A stretch of 51,128 nucleotides of DNA from Verrucomicrobiota bacterium JB023 (GTDB lineage: Bacteria > Verrucomicrobiota > Verrucomicrobiia > Verrucomicrobiales > Akkermansiaceae): positions 1-51,128 of the forward strand of contig JAUTCR010000046.1 of the NCBI GenBank assembly GCA_030673895.1, read 5' to 3'. Both the position numbers and the translations under genes were made by a program. The notes under the pieces are model-generated. The model was not told the origin of the DNA. It saw nothing but the letters and a program-made list of their open reading frames with translations, and ran no database searches. Positions 5,605-11,630 of this stretch are shown piece by piece. Each line of letters begins with the position of its first letter. The stretch's first letter is position 1.

Positions 5605-6330
5605 ATGAGCGACGTCATCAAAGCCTGGGTTGATGAGGGTGAGGTGAAGCGCCTCGCGGAAGCTCTGCTTTCCCGGCCCATCCTCGGGGAAGTCGAAGTT
5701 AAGTATGGCGACAATTTCGAAGGATTTGCCGAAGGAATTCCCTCCCAAGAGGCGGCGCCGGTCAATGAGATCCGGGCGCGCGAGGCTGCCAGCGTCTTGC
5801 GCAAGGCTCGGGAAGAAGCGATGCATGGAGGCTCCGTCCGCCCGGGACAGCAGGCCCCGGCCTCACCCTTCCGCCGCGTGACGCCCACTCCCGCAGAGAC
5901 CTCCAAGGGCGCGGGCATCACCCCGGCAGCCGAACTCAAGCGGCCCGGGGCGCCGAATGGAAACGAACCTCTCCTCAAGCGGATGCAGACCTTCGGCGAG
6001 TGGCTGAAGGGGCCCGTCGGCGCTCAATCCTATTTCATCTCGACCCGCAATGGGCAGCCACTCTTGGACGAGGTCAAGAATCCGAAGCTCGTCCAAGTGG
6101 CCCGGACCCTGGCCAAAGCCTCGCGCCCAAGCCGCAGCAAGACCGAGGAGATGGGCAGCCTCCACGTCCGCATCGGAGAGCACTCCATCCTCGAGGTCAT
6201 TCCCGCGCCCTCGCAATACGGCATCCTGATTCTCGGTCTCGTCGTCGAGCATTCTCTTGAAGACACCGTCATCCGCGAGATCAGGCTGGGCCTGCAGGAG
6301 GTGGCAGATGCCCGACTGATCAGACCCTAG
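5605..6330 (+). CDS. Roadblock/LC7-like domain protein downstream of parA
   Basis: A 241-residue cytosolic protein with no signal peptide. Residues 1-65 form an acidic, helical N-terminus, about 66-118 is a proline/alanine-rich linker, and about 125-241 looks like a Roadblock/LC7 fold: a helix, the strand GAQSYFISTRNGQPLLDE, a helix, then the strands SLHVRIGEHSILEVIP and YGILILGLVV. Roadblock proteins such as MglB act as GTPase partners or dimerisation platforms in polarity systems. The assignment is by eye and only moderately certain. Its start is 6 bases after parA, which suggests it is a partner or adaptor of that ATPase. It ends tail-to-tail with rluD. Confidence 0.55.
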   Translation: MSDVIKAWVDEGEVKRLAEALLSRPILGEVEVKYGDNFEGFAEGIPSQEAAPVNEIRAREAASVLRKAREEAMHGGSVRPGQQAPASPFRRVTPTPAETSKGAGITPAAELKRPGAPNGNEPLLKRMQTFGEWLKGPVGAQSYFISTRNGQPLLDEVKNPKLVQVARTLAKASRPSRSKTEEMGSLHVRIGEHSILEVIPAPSQYGILILGLVVEHSLEDTVIREIRLGLQEVADARLIRP

Positions 6331-6375
6331 AGGCCAGCCTGGAAGCACCACCCTTGTCGAAACAGCGGAGCCCTC

Positions 6376-7284
6376 TCAGGGGCAGAGCTGGTTGGGCTCG
6401 GTCCAAGGGTGGAATTCCGGCGGAATCGGCGCTTGGCAGGTGACCCGCTCTCCCGAGACAGGGTGATTGAACGAGAGCTGCCTGGCGTGGAGCATGAGGC
6501 GAGGGGTGAGCGGGCTGGGCTTGCCGTAGATGGGATCGCTCAATATCGGTGCGCCCACATGCTTGAGGTGGACCCGGATCTGGTGGGTGCGGCCGGTATG
6601 GATGTGGCAGCGCACGAGGCAGGTCCCGTCATCGGCTCTCATGAGGACCTCGTAATCGGTGATGGCTGGCTTGCCCCCGCCGGGCTCCAGGACGGCCATC
6701 TGCTGGCGATTCACTGGATGGCGGCCGATATTGGTGAAGATGGTGTCGGCCTCCTTGGCAGGGGACCGGGCAGTGACAGCGAGATAGATCTTTTCGGTTT
6801 CCCGCTCGGCGAACTGGGTGATGAGTGCCTTCATGGCGCGCTCGCTCTTCGCAACCACGATGCAACCTGAAGTGTCTTTGTCGAGGCGATGAACGATTCC
6901 CGGCCGCTCCACCCCGTTGATCCCGGCGAGTTGTCCGTGGCAGTGATGCAGCAGGGCATTGACGAGGGTGCCGTCGGGATTGCCATTGGCAGGATGCACC
7001 ACCATTCCGTGGGCCTTGTTCAGCACAATGAGGTCGTCGTCCTCCCGCAGGACTTCCAGCGGCAGGTCCTGCGGGATGAGCTCCAGGCTGGTGGGCTCGG
7101 GAATTTCAATATCGATGACGTCGCCGGGATTAAGGGACTGCTTGGGCTTGGCAGGACGTTCGTTGACCAGGATGTGCCCGTCCTCGATTAAGCTCTTGAA
7201 GCGGGAGCGGGAATACTCCGGCAGCTGGGCGACGAGGTAGGTGTCGAGCCTGGGCTGCGGGTTGGTCACTTCGAGAGTCGGCAT
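6376..7284 (-). CDS. rluD: Ribosomal large subunit pseudouridine synthase, RluD/RluC family
   Basis: This enzyme isomerises specific uridines of 23S rRNA to pseudouridine. It has an N-terminal S4 RNA-binding domain (about residues 12-60, with RLDTYLVAQ and the FKSLIEDGHILVN helix-turn-strand), then the RluA catalytic domain with VVHPANGN (about 96-102) and the catalytic motif HRLDKDTSG with Asp135. The C-terminal RTHQIRVHLKHVGAPILSD is typical. At 302 residues it has the normal length for RluD-type enzymes. It is the best fit to RluD, but RluC-like specificity cannot be excluded without phylogeny. It is divergent from the sigma factor gene. Confidence 0.9.
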   Translation of the reverse strand: MPTLEVTNPQPRLDTYLVAQLPEYSRSRFKSLIEDGHILVNERPAKPKQSLNPGDVIDIEIPEPTSLELIPQDLPLEVLREDDDLIVLNKAHGMVVHPANGNPDGTLVNALLHHCHGQLAGINGVERPGIVHRLDKDTSGCIVVAKSERAMKALITQFAERETEKIYLAVTARSPAKEADTIFTNIGRHPVNRQQMAVLEPGGGKPAITDYEVLMRADDGTCLVRCHIHTGRTHQIRVHLKHVGAPILSDPIYGKPSPLTPRLMLHARQLSFNHPVSGERVTCQAPIPPEFHPWTEPNQLCP

Positions 7285-7399
7285 CGGCGGATTCTAGGGC
7301 TGATGGCCCGTTGCAGGAAAGCGCGATGTCGACAAGATGCGGCGTCATGCCACGGTCTAGCGGCTGTGCTTTTGACAGGGCCAAGGAGATCGAACAGCT

Positions 7400-7423
7400 T
7401 CACCACACACCTTGGAGTGGTGA
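7400..7423 (+). promoter_or_regulatory. Stem-loop just upstream of the sigma-factor start
   Basis: TCACCAC (7400-7406) and GTGGTGA (7417-7423) are perfect 7-base inverted repeats with a 10-base spacer, ending 5 bases before the ATG at 7429. The GGAG at 7414-7417, the best Shine-Dalgarno match, lies in the loop and at the stem edge. It could modulate translation of the sigma factor or bind a dimeric regulator; neither is demonstrated. Confidence 0.35.
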
Positions 7424-7428
7424 GCTAA

Positions 7429-8034
7429 ATGAGTGTGGAACGGAAAAACGCGGATCCAGACCGGATTCTAGTGGAGCGGGCGCGGGGTGGCGACACCCGG
7501 GCGTTCGATGAGCTCATTGTGAAGTATAGCCCCAAGCTCTACGGCTTGATCTACAACATGACCTCCAACAAGGAGGACACCCATGACGTCTTGCAGGACG
7601 TCTTCGCCAAGGCCTACCGCTCCCTCAACAAGTTCAAGGGAAACTCCTCGTTCTACACCTGGATCTATGCCATTGCGACCAACATGACCTTGAACTTCCT
7701 CAAGAAGCGGAAGCGACGGGTGGCGCAGAGCCTGGACGAGGTTGACTCAGGCATTCAAAACGATCCGGCCTTCGTCGATGTCTCCAATGTCGCCAACCCC
7801 CGGCAGCAGAGCGACGTCCACACCTTGCAGGAAAAATTGAACGAAGCCATGATGAGGTTGTCAGACGACCATAGAGCGGTGGTGACCATGTTTGACATCC
7901 AGGGACTACCTCATGCTGAAATCAGCCGCGTGCTGGGTGTCAGCGAAGGGACCGTGCGTTCCAGGCTGTTCTATGCCCACCGTTTGCTCCAAGGCTACCT
8001 GCAAGAATTTTTGCCCGAAAAGGCTGGAATTTAA
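7429..8034 (+). CDS. ECF (RpoE-like) RNA polymerase sigma factor
   Basis: A 201-residue extracytoplasmic-function sigma factor. Region 2 covers roughly residues 24-95, with YSPKLYGLIYNMTSNKED and DVLQDVFAKAYRSLNKFKG contacting the -10 element and core polymerase. Region 4 covers roughly 130-185 and includes LPHAEISRVLGVSEGTVRSR, the helix-turn-helix that reads the -35 element. There is no region 1 or 3, as expected for the ECF class. The ATG at 7429 follows a small stem-loop. A one-pass membrane protein and a secreted PDZ protein follow in the same direction, the usual arrangement for a sigma factor held by a membrane-bound regulator. The target genes are unknown. Confidence 0.93.
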   Translation: MSVERKNADPDRILVERARGGDTRAFDELIVKYSPKLYGLIYNMTSNKEDTHDVLQDVFAKAYRSLNKFKGNSSFYTWIYAIATNMTLNFLKKRKRRVAQSLDEVDSGIQNDPAFVDVSNVANPRQQSDVHTLQEKLNEAMMRLSDDHRAVVTMFDIQGLPHAEISRVLGVSEGTVRSRLFYAHRLLQGYLQEFLPEKAGI

Positions 8035-8082
8035 GTTTGCCTAAAAATACGGAATTTTGATAATCTCCAAGCCCTAAGCGTC

Positions 8083-8505
8083 ATGAGTGCCCCACAAGAT
8101 CTGCCTAACGAGGAACTGCAACAGTTGCAGAGTCTCCTTCGTCTTAAGAATTATGAGCGGCCTGTGGACGGTTACTTTGAAGATTTTCTCGACGAGTTCC
8201 ACCGCCGTCAGCGGGAGGAAGTCGTCTCTCGCGAGCCCTCCGTGTGGGAGAAGGTCACGACTTGGTTCAATGGTCTGGGCGCTGCCCGTTGGGCCTATGG
8301 AGCGGGTCTCGGCTATGCCCTCCTGTTCTTGGCTTTTGTGATGTGGCCCGACCAAGCGGCTCCGAATCAGTCGGTAGCGCAGGAAACAGAGGAAGTTTTG
8401 CCAGGAGATCGTAGATTGGAGCATGTTGAGCTTGAGAGGAAGCAACAACCACTGCCAGCGGATGAGGAAAAGGAAGCCCGTGAACTGCTTCCCAAGGATT
8501 TTTGA
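8083..8505 (+). CDS. Single-pass membrane protein, candidate anti-sigma factor
   Basis: A 140-residue protein 48 bases after the sigma gene. The first ~60 residues are charged and helical (ELQQLQSLLRLKNYERP, then YFEDFLDEFHRRQRE). A single transmembrane segment lies at about residues 69-87 (WAYGAGLGYALLFLAFVMW), and a charged, proline-containing tail follows. By position and topology (cytosolic N-terminus, extracytoplasmic tail) it could be the anti-sigma factor. It lacks the zinc-binding HxxxCxxC of the ZAS class, and no cysteine is present at all, so any anti-sigma role would belong to a different class. The downstream PDZ-protein gene begins immediately after its stop. Function is inferred from context only. 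Confidence 0.55.
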   Translation: MSAPQDLPNEELQQLQSLLRLKNYERPVDGYFEDFLDEFHRRQREEVVSREPSVWEKVTTWFNGLGAARWAYGAGLGYALLFLAFVMWPDQAAPNQSVAQETEEVLPGDRRLEHVELERKQQPLPADEEKEARELLPKDF

Positions 8506-8506
8506 T

Positions 8507-9436
8507 TTGAAGGCATTGAGGCAGTTCCTTTGGACTGGCTTGCTACTCGTTACTACGGTGGCGCGAGGGGAAGTTCCCACTCGCGTCGTTTTTTTGCCTT
8601 CGTCCGTCGGGAAATTGCCCGCGTCGTCCGAGCTGGTCTACCTCGATGAACAAGGTTTAGCCGCGGCAGTCACCGCCCTCGGCGTCAATCCGCGACAGGG
8701 GCAAGCCGGCGACCGCAAGACGATCCTGGTCGCCCACGATCCAGTCAGCCGGCTCTCACTCCTCCGGGTCCCCCTGGAGACGGGGGAGAGCACGCGAGCG
8801 GAGGAGCTGGGCAGCACCCTTAATCTAGAGGAAGGGGCTGTGCTCCTCACCAGCCTGGAGGGGGGAGAGGAGGCTAGTCGGCTGGTCAGCCGGGAGAGCA
8901 CCTACAAGGGGAAGCCGCTGCCATTGGAATTAATGCGGGTCCACCACCCGCCGGAGATTGACGTCAGGATGGGCGCTCCGCTTTACGACGCCGCCGGCCG
9001 CTTGCTGGGTATCAGCTACCGCCGGGCACAAGAGTTTGGCAATGGCACCTTCGTCTTCCCTGCGGAAGCGATCGAGCGAGTTTGGCGGGGTTCCCGCAAG
9101 AACGAGATCGTCGAGCGCAGCTGGTTCGGTGTCGAATTGCTCGCCACCGACCCCATGCCCGTTGTGCAGGGCGTTCTGCAGAATTCTCCGGCGGCGGCCG
9201 CAGGTCTGCAGAAGGGCGATATCCTTTTGAAGATTGGTGAACGTCGGGTGGCGAACTACGCCGCCGCGGTCAATGCCTTCTATTACCTGCTGGAAGGTAA
9301 GCCGACCGATGTGCTTCTCCTGCGGGGGACGGAGCGCTTGTCATTAACGGTGGTTCCTGAGTTGGTTCCCGCAGCTACGGTGTCACCCGCCTTGCCAGCT
9401 CAGACGGAGCCGACAACCAGTTCGACAGCAAACTGA
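8507..9436 (+). CDS. Secreted HtrA-like pseudoprotease with C-terminal PDZ domain
   Basis: The TTG at 8507 is the chosen start: AAGGA sits 8 bases upstream and it yields a clean signal peptide (basic LKALRQ, hydrophobic FLWTGLLLVTTVA). An ATG at 8462 has no ribosome-binding site and overlaps the previous gene. The 309-residue product carries a C-terminal PDZ domain (about 205-285: FGVELLATDP, SPAAAAGLQKGDILLKIG). The N-terminal half aligns by eye with the HtrA protease fold: HDPVSRLSLLRV matches the DPxxDLALLKV region, and RMGAPLYDAAGRLLGI matches PGNSGGPL...GEVIGI. Asp and Ser are replaced and no equivalent His is visible, so it is probably not a protease. It likely serves as a periplasmic sensor or binding partner in the sigma-factor unit. 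Confidence 0.72.
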   Translation: MKALRQFLWTGLLLVTTVARGEVPTRVVFLPSSVGKLPASSELVYLDEQGLAAAVTALGVNPRQGQAGDRKTILVAHDPVSRLSLLRVPLETGESTRAEELGSTLNLEEGAVLLTSLEGGEEASRLVSRESTYKGKPLPLELMRVHHPPEIDVRMGAPLYDAAGRLLGISYRRAQEFGNGTFVFPAEAIERVWRGSRKNEIVERSWFGVELLATDPMPVVQGVLQNSPAAAAGLQKGDILLKIGERRVANYAAAVNAFYYLLEGKPTDVLLLRGTERLSLTVVPELVPAATVSPALPAQTEPTTSSTAN

Positions 9437-9446
9437 GCAAAAGAAA

Positions 9447-9475
9447 GGCTTGGTCCCCTCGTCGGAAACCAAGCC
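9447..9475 (-). terminator. Rho-independent terminator of the fasciclin gene
   Basis: GGCTTGGT (9447-9454) and ACCAAGCC (9468-9475) form a perfect 8-base stem with a 13-base loop. On the minus strand the stem is followed by TTTCTTTTG, a good U-tract, so it terminates the fasciclin transcript 33 bases after its stop. On the plus strand it lies 10 bases after the PDZ gene but has no U-tract. Confidence 0.75.
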
Positions 9476-9507
9476 ACAAATGAAGTCATTAGTATCTGTC
9501 CGGGTAA

Positions 9508-10032
9508 TTAGTCTTCCGAGGGCATGATCACGGAGTCAATGACGTGGATGACGCCGTTGGAGCCTTCGATGTCGGTTTTGACGACCTTGGCCTCATCGAC
9601 CATCACCGAGCCTTCGTCGGTCGAGATTGTCAGTTCGCTCCCTTCGAGTGTTTCGACCTCGCCCGCGGCCACGTCCTTGGCGAGCACCTTCGCGGAGACG
9701 ACGTGATACTTGAGGATTGAGGTCAGCTTCTCCTTGTTCTCGGGCTTGAGCAGCTCGTCGACGGTCCCTTCAGGAAGTTTTTCGAATGCGGCATTGGTGG
9801 GTGCGAAGATGGTGAACGGACCTTCACCTGAGAGCGCTTCAGCCAGTCCGGCAGCCTTGACGGCGGCGACCAAGGTGGAGAAGTCCTCATTGGATGCGGC
9901 GATCTCAACGAGGTTCTTTTCCATCATGGCTTTTTCTTCGGTCATCTCATGCTTCTCGCCGTGGTGATTGGCGAAGGCGGCTCCGGAGAAAAGGAGGGTA
10001 GCGGAAGTCAGAAGTGTGATTGTGGTTTTCAT
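9508..10032 (-). CDS. Secreted fasciclin (FAS1) domain protein
   Basis: A 174-residue exported protein: the signal peptide [21 protein letters not shown] is followed by a short histidine/glutamate-rich linker ([13 protein letters not shown]) and one FAS1 domain. The family's H1 motif is visible as [18 protein letters not shown], and the second conserved block appears as [11 protein letters not shown] at the C-terminus. FAS1 domains mediate adhesion or matrix contacts; bacterial single-domain forms are often stress-linked. It is monocistronic, with about 296 bases upstream before the next gene and a strong terminator downstream. Confidence 0.92.
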
Positions 10033-10328
10033 TATTTTTTGGATGTTCGGTTTTTCTTGTCTCTATGGACAGTTCAACAAACCACGAAAACACCACCTGT
10101 CTTCGAAAAAATTCGGTGGGGTGACTTTAGCTTGCGGACGCGCCGATCGAGTCTTCATTCAAGGTTTCCATGCGCAAAAATGCCAAGTGAATTGCCCTGC
10201 TAGTTGAAAGAGGGGTTTCCTTTAATGGTCTTTCTGTGAGTGGTTTAGGTGAAATCTAGGCATGAAAAAAGACGCTCCAGTAAGGAGCGCCTTTTTGAAT
10301 AAGGACGAAAAAATTTTTTCGATCGAAC
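10033..10328. other. Intergenic region upstream of the fasciclin gene
   Basis: About 296 bases without a credible gene. It should hold the fasciclin promoter (minus strand), since the 60 bases before that start are AT-rich. A bidirectional terminator lies at 10271-10291. Nothing else could be supported. Confidence 0.6.
10271..10291 (-). terminator. Terminator after the pyruvate dehydrogenase E2 gene
   Basis: GACGCTCC (10271-10278) pairs with GGAGCGCC (10284-10291) around a 5-base loop, with one wobble. Read on the minus strand the hairpin is followed by TTTTTTC, a strong U-tract, 38 bases after the E2 stop. The plus-strand reading also has TTTTT (10292-10296), so it may work in both directions. 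Confidence 0.8.
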
Positions 10329-11630
10329 TTAGACGAGCATCAGCGCCGGGTTCTCAATGAGCTTTTTCACCTCGGCAAGGAATTGAGCTCCGACGGCGCC
10401 GTCGACGACACGGTGGTCGCAGGAGAGACCGAGATTCATGCGCTGCCCAGGGACGATTTGGCCGTCCTTGACCACGGCTTTCTGGACGATGCCTCCCACG
10501 GAGAGAATGGCGGCCTGAGGGGGGTTGATGATGGCGTCAAAGGAATCGACTCCATAGGAACCGAGGTTGGAGACCGTGATGGTGCCACCCTCGAAGTCGT
10601 CGGGGCGAAGCTTCTTGTCGCGGGCCCGGGCGGCGATGTCCTTGACCTCGCGAGAGATCTGGAGAAGCGACTTGTCCCCGGCCTCTTTGATGACGGGGGT
10701 GACCAAGCCATCCTCGACGGCGACAGCGACCGAGACGCCAATGGAGGCAAATTGGATGATGTGGTCACCGGCGAAGGAGGCGTTCACTTCGGGCACCGCT
10801 TTGCTGGCTTCAATGACGGCCTTGAGGATGAAGTCGTTGACCGTGTATTTGTTGCCCGTTGTCTTCTCGGCTTGCTCATTGATTTGCTTGCGCAAGCCCA
10901 TGAGCGCGGCGGTGTCTGCCTCCACGTGCAGGTAGAAGTGCGGGATGGTCACCTTGGAGGTGAGGAGGCGGTCAGCGATGATCTTCCGCATGTTGGAGAG
11001 CGGAATCTTCTCATCAGCGTCGGACGCGGTGGCGGTCACGGCCTCCACCGCCGGAGCGCTAGGAGCGGGGGCGCTGGCTGCCGGGGCGGAGCTGCTCCCA
11101 CCAGCCTTGGCTGATTCGACATCCGCTTTGACGATGCGGCCTCCGGGGCCACTGCCGGTCAGGGTAGAAAGGTCGATGCCTTTGCTCTCCGCAATCTTGC
11201 GGGCGAGGGGAGAGGCCTTGATGCGCTCGCCGCTTTCGGTAGTGCCTGCGGCTGGAGCTGAGGAGCTTGTCGCTTCAGCCGAGCCGGCGGTGATGGACTC
11301 GGTCTTTTGGCTCTCTTCAGGCTGGGAGTCCGGGGACTTGGCGGGCTCGGAGCTTGTGCTCTCTTCTTCATCGTCATCGCCAGCCTCTTCACCTTCTTCC
11401 AGCAAGACGCCAATCTTGGTGCCAACCGGAGCTTTCTCGCCGTCACCAACGATGATTTTGCTGAGGGTTCCCTCGTCGAAGGCTTCCATGGGCATGGTGG
11501 CCTTGTCGGTCTCGATTTCGAGGATTTCATCACCGATTTCCACCCGATCCCCGACTTGTTTGAGCCAACGAAGGATGGTGCCTTCGGTCATCGTGTCGGA
11601 AAGCTTGGGCATTTCGATATTGGTGGGCAT
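10329..11630 (-). CDS. pdhC: Dihydrolipoamide acetyltransferase, pyruvate dehydrogenase E2
   Basis: E2 transfers the acetyl group from lipoamide to CoA and forms the structural core of the pyruvate dehydrogenase complex. The 433-residue protein has one lipoyl domain (about 1-78) with the lipoylated lysine in EIETDKATM (Lys43), an acidic then alanine/proline-rich linker, a peripheral-subunit-binding domain (about 138-172, SPLARKIAESKGIDLSTLTG), a second flexible linker and the catalytic CAT domain with SCDHRVVDGA (His406). MEMPKLSDTM-type openings are characteristic of the PDH rather than the 2-oxoglutarate enzyme. E1 and E3 genes are not in the window. A lipoate ligase-like gene lies 117 bases upstream on the same strand, a functionally sensible neighbour. 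Confidence 0.94.
   Translation of the reverse strand: MPTNIEMPKLSDTMTEGTILRWLKQVGDRVEIGDEILEIETDKATMPMEAFDEGTLSKIIVGDGEKAPVGTKIGVLLEEGEEAGDDDEEESTSSEPAKSPDSQPEESQKTESITAGSAEATSSSAPAAGTTESGERIKASPLARKIAESKGIDLSTLTGSGPGGRIVKADVESAKAGGSSSAPAASAPAPSAPAVEAVTATASDADEKIPLSNMRKIIADRLLTSKVTIPHFYLHVEADTAALMGLRKQINEQAEKTTGNKYTVNDFILKAVIEASKAVPEVNASFAGDHIIQFASIGVSVAVAVEDGLVTPVIKEAGDKSLLQISREVKDIAARARDKKLRPDDFEGGTITVSNLGSYGVDSFDAIINPPQAAILSVGGIVQKAVVKDGQIVPGQRMNLGLSCDHRVVDGAVGAQFLAEVKKLIENPALMLV

Follow-up and report, generated by a model that had tools for sequence, protein, structure and literature searches.

Can an HtrA-like protein that has lost its catalytic residues serve the sigma factor in whose operon it is encoded? 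Known circuits of the sigma-E type rely on an active HtrA (DegS, AlgW). In the DNA analysed here, a stretch of 51,128 nucleotides that we term the window, the HtrA slot of a sigma factor operon belongs to a protein that, throughout its sampled family, has lost the triad and retained the fold, the PDZ loop and the position. Its partner in the membrane has a matching C-terminus, which makes the role of a pseudoprotease in signalling testable.

The open reading frames of the operon, all co-directional, are the following.

7429-8034, + strand: ECF sigma factor with sigma2 and sigma4 regions, 201 amino acids (Pfam and relatives).
8083-8505, + strand: single-pass membrane protein, a putative anti-sigma factor, 140 amino acids (hydropathy and position behind the sigma gene).
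8507-9436, + strand: HtrA-like pseudoprotease, apparently exported, with one PDZ domain, 309 amino acids from a TTG start (Pfam, profile and structure prediction).

The first-pass annotation had placed the trio correctly at these coordinates and on this strand. It had also called the first gene an ECF sigma factor, and both regions are indeed present. Pfam matches were obtained for Sigma70_r2 (E = 4e-16, 59 bits) and Sigma70_r4_2 (E = 1.2e-13, 50.9 bits), and the TIGR02937 sigma70-ECF model gave 109.5 bits against a cut-off of 42.9. Sixteen relatives of the sigma factor have identities of 51-79%, and there may be a published ECF group that covers it. An Rfam scan of positions 6000-11000 returned no families.

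The second gene had been described as encoding a one-pass membrane protein without a zinc motif, and our analysis agrees. Three parts of the protein can be distinguished.

8083-8289, + strand: conserved N-terminal domain, LxRLKxYExPxxxYFxDFLxEFHxRQR, presumably cytoplasmic (helical by prediction in a relative).
8290-8346, + strand: transmembrane helix, residues 70-88 (hydropathy).
8494-8502, + strand: C-terminal tail -KDF, the proposed PDZ ligand (conservation).

The best hydrophobic 19-mer corresponds to residues 70-88. The protein contains no cysteine, and therefore has no ZAS motif HxxxCxxC. Class I anti-sigma domains can do without zinc, as RseA does according to an excerpt of the literature (PMC7406223). 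Lys and Arg are more abundant on the N-terminal side of the transmembrane segment in 75 of 100 systems, and on the C-terminal side in three, with 22 ties; these counts favour an N-terminus that lies inside. In the predicted structure of the relative from locus L043, helices are formed by residues 5-16 and 22-59, followed by a transmembrane helix at 62-82. A Pfam search with the window protein identified no family, none of 23 members of the membrane-protein family matched the Pfam anti-sigma families, and the search of solved structures with the family gave no relative at E < 0.36. Five of the 23 members match the NCBIfam CU044_5270 family weakly (best E = 5.5e-4). The position of the gene and the predicted topology would be consistent with anti-sigma activity, and we refer to the protein as a putative anti-sigma factor.

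The third gene was read from a TTG at 8507, one base past the TGA of the membrane-protein gene. This start codon is a choice, because the frame is open upstream as far as an ATG at 8423. Judged by eye, the N-terminus of the protein looks like a signal peptide. The domains and the positions of the missing catalytic residues are as follows.

8579-9097, + strand: trypsin-like double-barrel domain without a catalytic triad (alignment and predicted structure).
8675-8677, + strand: A57, at the column of the catalytic His (alignment).
8750-8752, + strand: R82, at the column of the catalytic Asp (alignment).
8969-8971, + strand: M155, at the column of the catalytic Ser (alignment).
9119-9361, + strand: PDZ domain, with the carboxylate-binding loop W206-F-G-V209 (Pfam and alignment).

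Three PDZ models of Pfam match the protein (PDZ_2, E = 3.1e-9); Trypsin_2 scores 18.7 bits and so stays below its threshold of 27.6. A profile of the window protein and 51 relatives (54 were found behind sigma in the named loci, with L051, L082 and L094 left out) matches DegP and DegQ chains across both domains, with a best E value of 3.3e-54. The AlphaFold model has pLDDT 90.8 and pTM 0.83, and corresponds to the protease domain plus PDZ1 of DegP, DegQ and DegS. Using VIA-align, the model was superimposed upon DegP (8f0a_A) with Z = 23.6, an rmsd of 2.9 and 253 aligned positions, upon DegQ (3stj_A) with Z = 23.2 and upon DegS (3gdv_C) with Z = 18.4. A trypsin-like fold of this half, on which the first-pass annotation had made its reading depend, is thus predicted. 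Structurally the model matches HtrA proteins best, and any likeness to RseB is purely one of functional analogy. We also observed three short pseudo-HtrAs (L027, L029 and L033; 258-261 amino acids) in which much of the first barrel is gone and the PDZ domain is retained; their membrane partners keep an -EF or -DF tail.

The catalytic columns were taken from an HtrA of the same genome with intact motifs (L002), in an alignment of the pseudo-HtrA family with eight Trypsin_2 proteins of that genome. The absence of His, Asp and Ser that had been noted at first sight holds at each column, with A57, R82 and M155 in their places. The landmark DPxxxLxLLxV that had been named in the same connection corresponds to the HtrA strand on which the catalytic Asp lies; here the Asp itself is replaced by Arg. 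The loss extends to the whole sampled family, to judge from the aligned columns. Among 73 distinct members the His column contains P (19), V (12), S (10), T (7), E (6), L (6), A (4), I, N and G (2 each), D and Y (1 each) and one gap. The Asp column has R (44), G (26), Q, H and a gap (1 each), and the Ser column A (25), P (24), G (9), S (5), I (4), L (3) and M, T and F (1 each). The canonical motifs are likewise missing from all of a further 13 members. Four of these come from the window's family and nine from different families within the phylum, and one of the nine (L210) belongs to another class. Since the loss is common to several families and to one other class, recent decay in a single genome was ruled out.

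On these columns, and on the missing motifs of the further 13 members, we also rejected an active protease of the DegS type. The third protein might still cut, as a DegS-like site-1 enzyme that uses an unusual set of catalytic residues; it has the fold of DegS and DegP, and Ser occupies the nucleophile column in five of the 73 members. Against this, His is missing from its column in all 72 members that have no gap there, 70 of 73 have Arg or Gly in place of the Asp, and no member combines His with Ser. We consider this explanation highly improbable. In two members (L111 and L076) there is a His two residues upstream of the His column. Among the eight Trypsin_2 comparators, L007 and L008 likewise deviate from the triad. 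L007 (own genome, G000:C40:1135-1557; 339 amino acids) carries Glu in place of the His and Gly at both other catalytic columns, and is possibly a second pseudoprotease of this genome.

Are the three genes neighbours in relatives, as the first-pass annotation had required of its reading? The order is kept, in near and in distant loci. Searching 58 genomes with the third protein gave 27 loci with strong matches (L009-L035, where L009 is the window). A sigma factor and a membrane protein lie upstream of the pseudo-HtrA in 22 of the 26 near relatives; of the other four, L032 is cut by a contig end and L012, L019 and L020 have no trio partners. When the named genomes were sampled by the sigma factor instead, the membrane protein was present behind it in all of the best 80 loci among the matches listed, with the pseudo-HtrA next in 54. 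Five of the 26 misses (L049, L052, L070, L086 and L100) have fewer than 600 bases behind the membrane protein. A profile of the membrane protein has matches in 145 of 195 genomes of the window's family, and in 86 of 288 genomes drawn over the phylum Verrucomicrobiota. The complete trio is found in nine of 18 distant loci, hand-picked from the phylum-wide set, in families f7, f8, f10, f14, f15, f16 and f18 and, in another class, f22. The recurrence of the whole trio exceeds chance. It occurs in records titled Roseibacillus, Haloferula rosea, Persicirhabdus sediminis and Spartobacteria, and in a metagenome-assembled genome titled Akkermansia muciniphila (L104). Two Prosthecobacter-titled loci (L085 and L112) have the sigma factor and membrane protein and no pseudo-HtrA.

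Conversely, three genomes contain a pseudo-HtrA with neither a sigma factor nor a membrane protein beside it (L012, L019 and L020). Their best sigma factors are 37-39% identical, and the profile search for the membrane protein gave no match in any of the three. In L019 and L020 a folB-like frame, named by eye, lies immediately upstream of the pseudo-HtrA, and in several relatives a similar frame, again by eye, ends before the sigma gene. These two loci look as though the sigma factor and membrane protein were lost there.

The periplasmic part of the membrane protein is variable in length and sequence, with a last residue that is nearly invariant. We compared 100 systems with the trio, comprising 91 in which identical membrane proteins were counted once and near-identical ones kept, and nine distant ones. 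The last residue is Phe in 72, Leu in 16, Tyr in six, Met in five and Asp in one, so that 99 of the 100 systems with an adjacent pseudo-HtrA end in F, L, Y or M; the lone exception, L094, extends beyond the usual stop. As controls from the same operons, a hydrophobic last residue is found in 16 of 93 sigma factors and in four of 100 pseudo-HtrAs. Glu occupies the penultimate position of the membrane protein in 54 systems. A 23-base overlap between the tail codons and the start of the next gene occurs in 13 loci and may add a constraint on the tail there. On the other side of the proposed contact, the carboxylate loop of the PDZ domain has Gly in all 73 distinct members and Trp in 65. The near-invariant hydrophobic last residue of a membrane protein beside a pseudo-HtrA is new here.

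This co-conservation suggests that the tail may be held by the PDZ domain of the neighbouring pseudoprotease. The first-pass annotation had proposed that the signal would be transferred by binding rather than cleavage. The conserved hydrophobic C-terminus and the retained carboxylate loop speak for this part of its reading; the sole model computed showed no docking. In that model, an AlphaFold prediction of an in-frame read-through of the membrane protein and pseudo-HtrA of L043, the tail was disordered (pLDDT about 41) and undocked. It is weak evidence against binding, because the tail is internal in this chain and the alignment depth is almost nil.

How closely is the tail tied to the gene next to it? 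The comparison was made with 139 distinct systems, nine with less than 1.2 kb behind the membrane protein being set aside. Thirteen of 39 systems without a pseudo-HtrA nonetheless have a hydrophobic last residue, and the other 26 end in P, R, K, D, Q or E. Fisher's test on the table of tail against pseudo-HtrA gives p = 1.2e-16, for rows that are related by descent. A tree of the sigma factors, made by a quick method, provides five supported independent pairs, or 12 if unsupported branches are included. In the five, the average numbers are 2.9 with the tail accompanying the gene, 0 with the opposite and 2.1 with no difference, and on the tree the association does not reach significance (median p = 0.25). 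Of the nine distant loci that lack the gene, eight have a hydrophobic last residue; the seven of family f9 end in -KF, L209 in -EY and L213 in -QR. With near and distant samples taken together, a hydrophobic tail is found without an adjacent pseudo-HtrA in 21 of 48. A near-strict link between tail and pseudo-HtrA, drawn from the first 80 loci, failed in this larger, hand-picked sample.

Family f9 (L198-L202, L212 and L215) is distinguished by a long periplasmic segment, with no pseudo-HtrA behind it and -KF in seven of seven. Intact motifs are present in each of the 12 HtrA hits, the stronger ones, that were read in four f9 genomes. In a single-sequence search of 14 genomes with hydrophobic tails for an unlinked pseudo-HtrA there was nothing better than E = 5.4e-7, which is the level of generic HtrA/PDZ matches and one at which a divergent copy could escape.

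The conserved unit, which occurs in many Verrucomicrobiota, and its greasy tail suggest control by gripping, not cutting. From the computed gene order, HtrA fold, loss of three catalytic residues and conservation of the tail, our best reading is that a putative anti-sigma factor has its C-terminus held by the PDZ pseudoprotease as an RseB-like cap, and we put its chance of being right at a little short of even. Counting against it are the undocked tail of the one model, the non-significant link on the tree, the three genomes with a solitary pseudo-HtrA, the trio system L094 with its non-hydrophobic end, and the 21 of 48 tails kept where the gene is missing, a count that lowered our estimate slightly. 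The ECF sigma factor would be bound by the N-terminal helices of the membrane protein, as gene order and predicted topology suggest. In the periplasm, the free hydrophobic C-terminus would lie in the PDZ groove of the pseudo-HtrA, which could not cut it and would cap it, as RseB protects RseA. Envelope damage might then produce competing C-termini, for example those of unfolded outer-membrane proteins, or some other ligand of the pseudo-HtrA, and so remove the cap. Once uncapped, the membrane protein might be cleaved by a separate active HtrA or other site-1 protease and then by an RseP-like site-2 protease, freeing the sigma factor; alternatively, release could follow from a conformational change. 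The first-pass annotation had allowed for a distant protease, and its participation is possible: the window's genome encodes HtrAs with intact motifs (L001, L002 and L004) and an RseP-like protein with HELGH.

The same intact HtrAs could be used differently. By binding the tail, the pseudo-HtrA might hand the anti-sigma factor to an active HtrA, or activate that enzyme, and so promote cleavage and not prevent it. The HtrA-family pseudoprotease MamO is a precedent: proteolysis dependent on MamE's active site also requires MamO (PMC4794232, in excerpt). In the loci read, however, the operon has no active HtrA linked to it. We regard such an adaptor as unlikely, and nothing observed separates it from capping. 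Removing proteolysis altogether gives a switch in which the pseudo-HtrA is itself the sensor, and the gripping and release of the anti-sigma C-terminus by its PDZ domain toggles the sigma factor without site-1 cleavage. The module on which this would operate occurs in two or more classes of a single phylum, and we place this version on the unlikely side.

The failure of strict pairing bears on a further explanation, in which the tail is a degron for unlinked active PDZ proteases, and the pseudo-HtrA an independent periplasmic chaperone or scaffold that shares the operon by chance. The -KF tails of all seven f9 loci without the adjacent gene fit this, as do the 13 hydrophobic tails among 39 other systems without a pseudo-HtrA and the three genomes in which the pseudo-HtrA stands alone. 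It accounts less readily for 99 hydrophobic tails in 100 where the pseudo-HtrA adjoins, and for the 26 of 39 systems without the gene that end otherwise. We consider it unlikely. Capping of the tail by the pseudo-HtrA remains our preferred reading.

Comparison with known systems, drawn from excerpts of the cited papers, shows which elements of the trio are familiar. In E. coli an active DegS cuts RseA, and RseB is a second negative regulator bound to RseA (PMC6737893). The likeness lies in an ECF sigma factor, a one-pass partner and a periplasmic PDZ protein of HtrA fold, and the PDZ ligands are C-terminal peptides (PMC6737893), as proposed for the window. RseB, however, is not an HtrA, and here its proposed role falls to an HtrA fold. 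In Pseudomonas, MucE and outer-membrane proteins are bound at their C-termini by the PDZ domain of AlgW, and MucB and RseB protect MucA and RseA in AlgW assays (PMC8545111). An HtrA PDZ domain thus binds a periplasmic C-terminus ending in Phe, where in the window binding is proposed; but AlgW is proteolytically active, and MucE serves as an activator, not as the anti-sigma factor (PMC8545111). In Mycobacterium tuberculosis, sigE adjoins an rseA-htrA-tatB operon, giving the same order of sigma, anti-sigma and HtrA. There HtrA is an essential serine protease, RseA is under redox control and subject to phosphorylation-dependent proteolysis by ClpC1P2, and the meaning of the gene grouping has been called hard to understand (PMC10027907). 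The window differs in an HtrA without the triad and in a membrane protein that ends in a residue like that of a PDZ ligand.

MamO is closest in being derived from HtrA and repurposed without catalysis; it promotes cleavage by MamE, and its own active site is dispensable (PMC4794232). It differs in its magnetosome function, in binding metal and in having no sigma factor, and its nucleophile is replaced by Thr with His and Asp retained (PMC4794232), whereas the window protein has lost all three. As excerpted, none of these systems combines a triad-less HtrA, a sigma operon and a tail in cis. Among the matches listed from open-licence PMC, judged by title and start of abstract, no paper describes the module, and nothing there links Verrucomicrob-, anti-sigma and PDZ.

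Upstream of the sigma gene, 30 of 121 regions contain the motif TTGAAC-N15-17-[TG]GTC (for example L045, L046 and L022), a count made post hoc on a motif first spotted by eye, with some near-identical rows and one mis-set region (L034). Shuffled regions gave a mean of 0.33 (maximum 2), and the reverse strand 0. The whole genome has 17 matches, against nine for the backward control, numbers that define no regulon. The motif is absent from the upstream region of the window's own sigma gene, which has TTGACA at 7372-7377. In the regions where it occurs, the motif resembles an ECF-like promoter.
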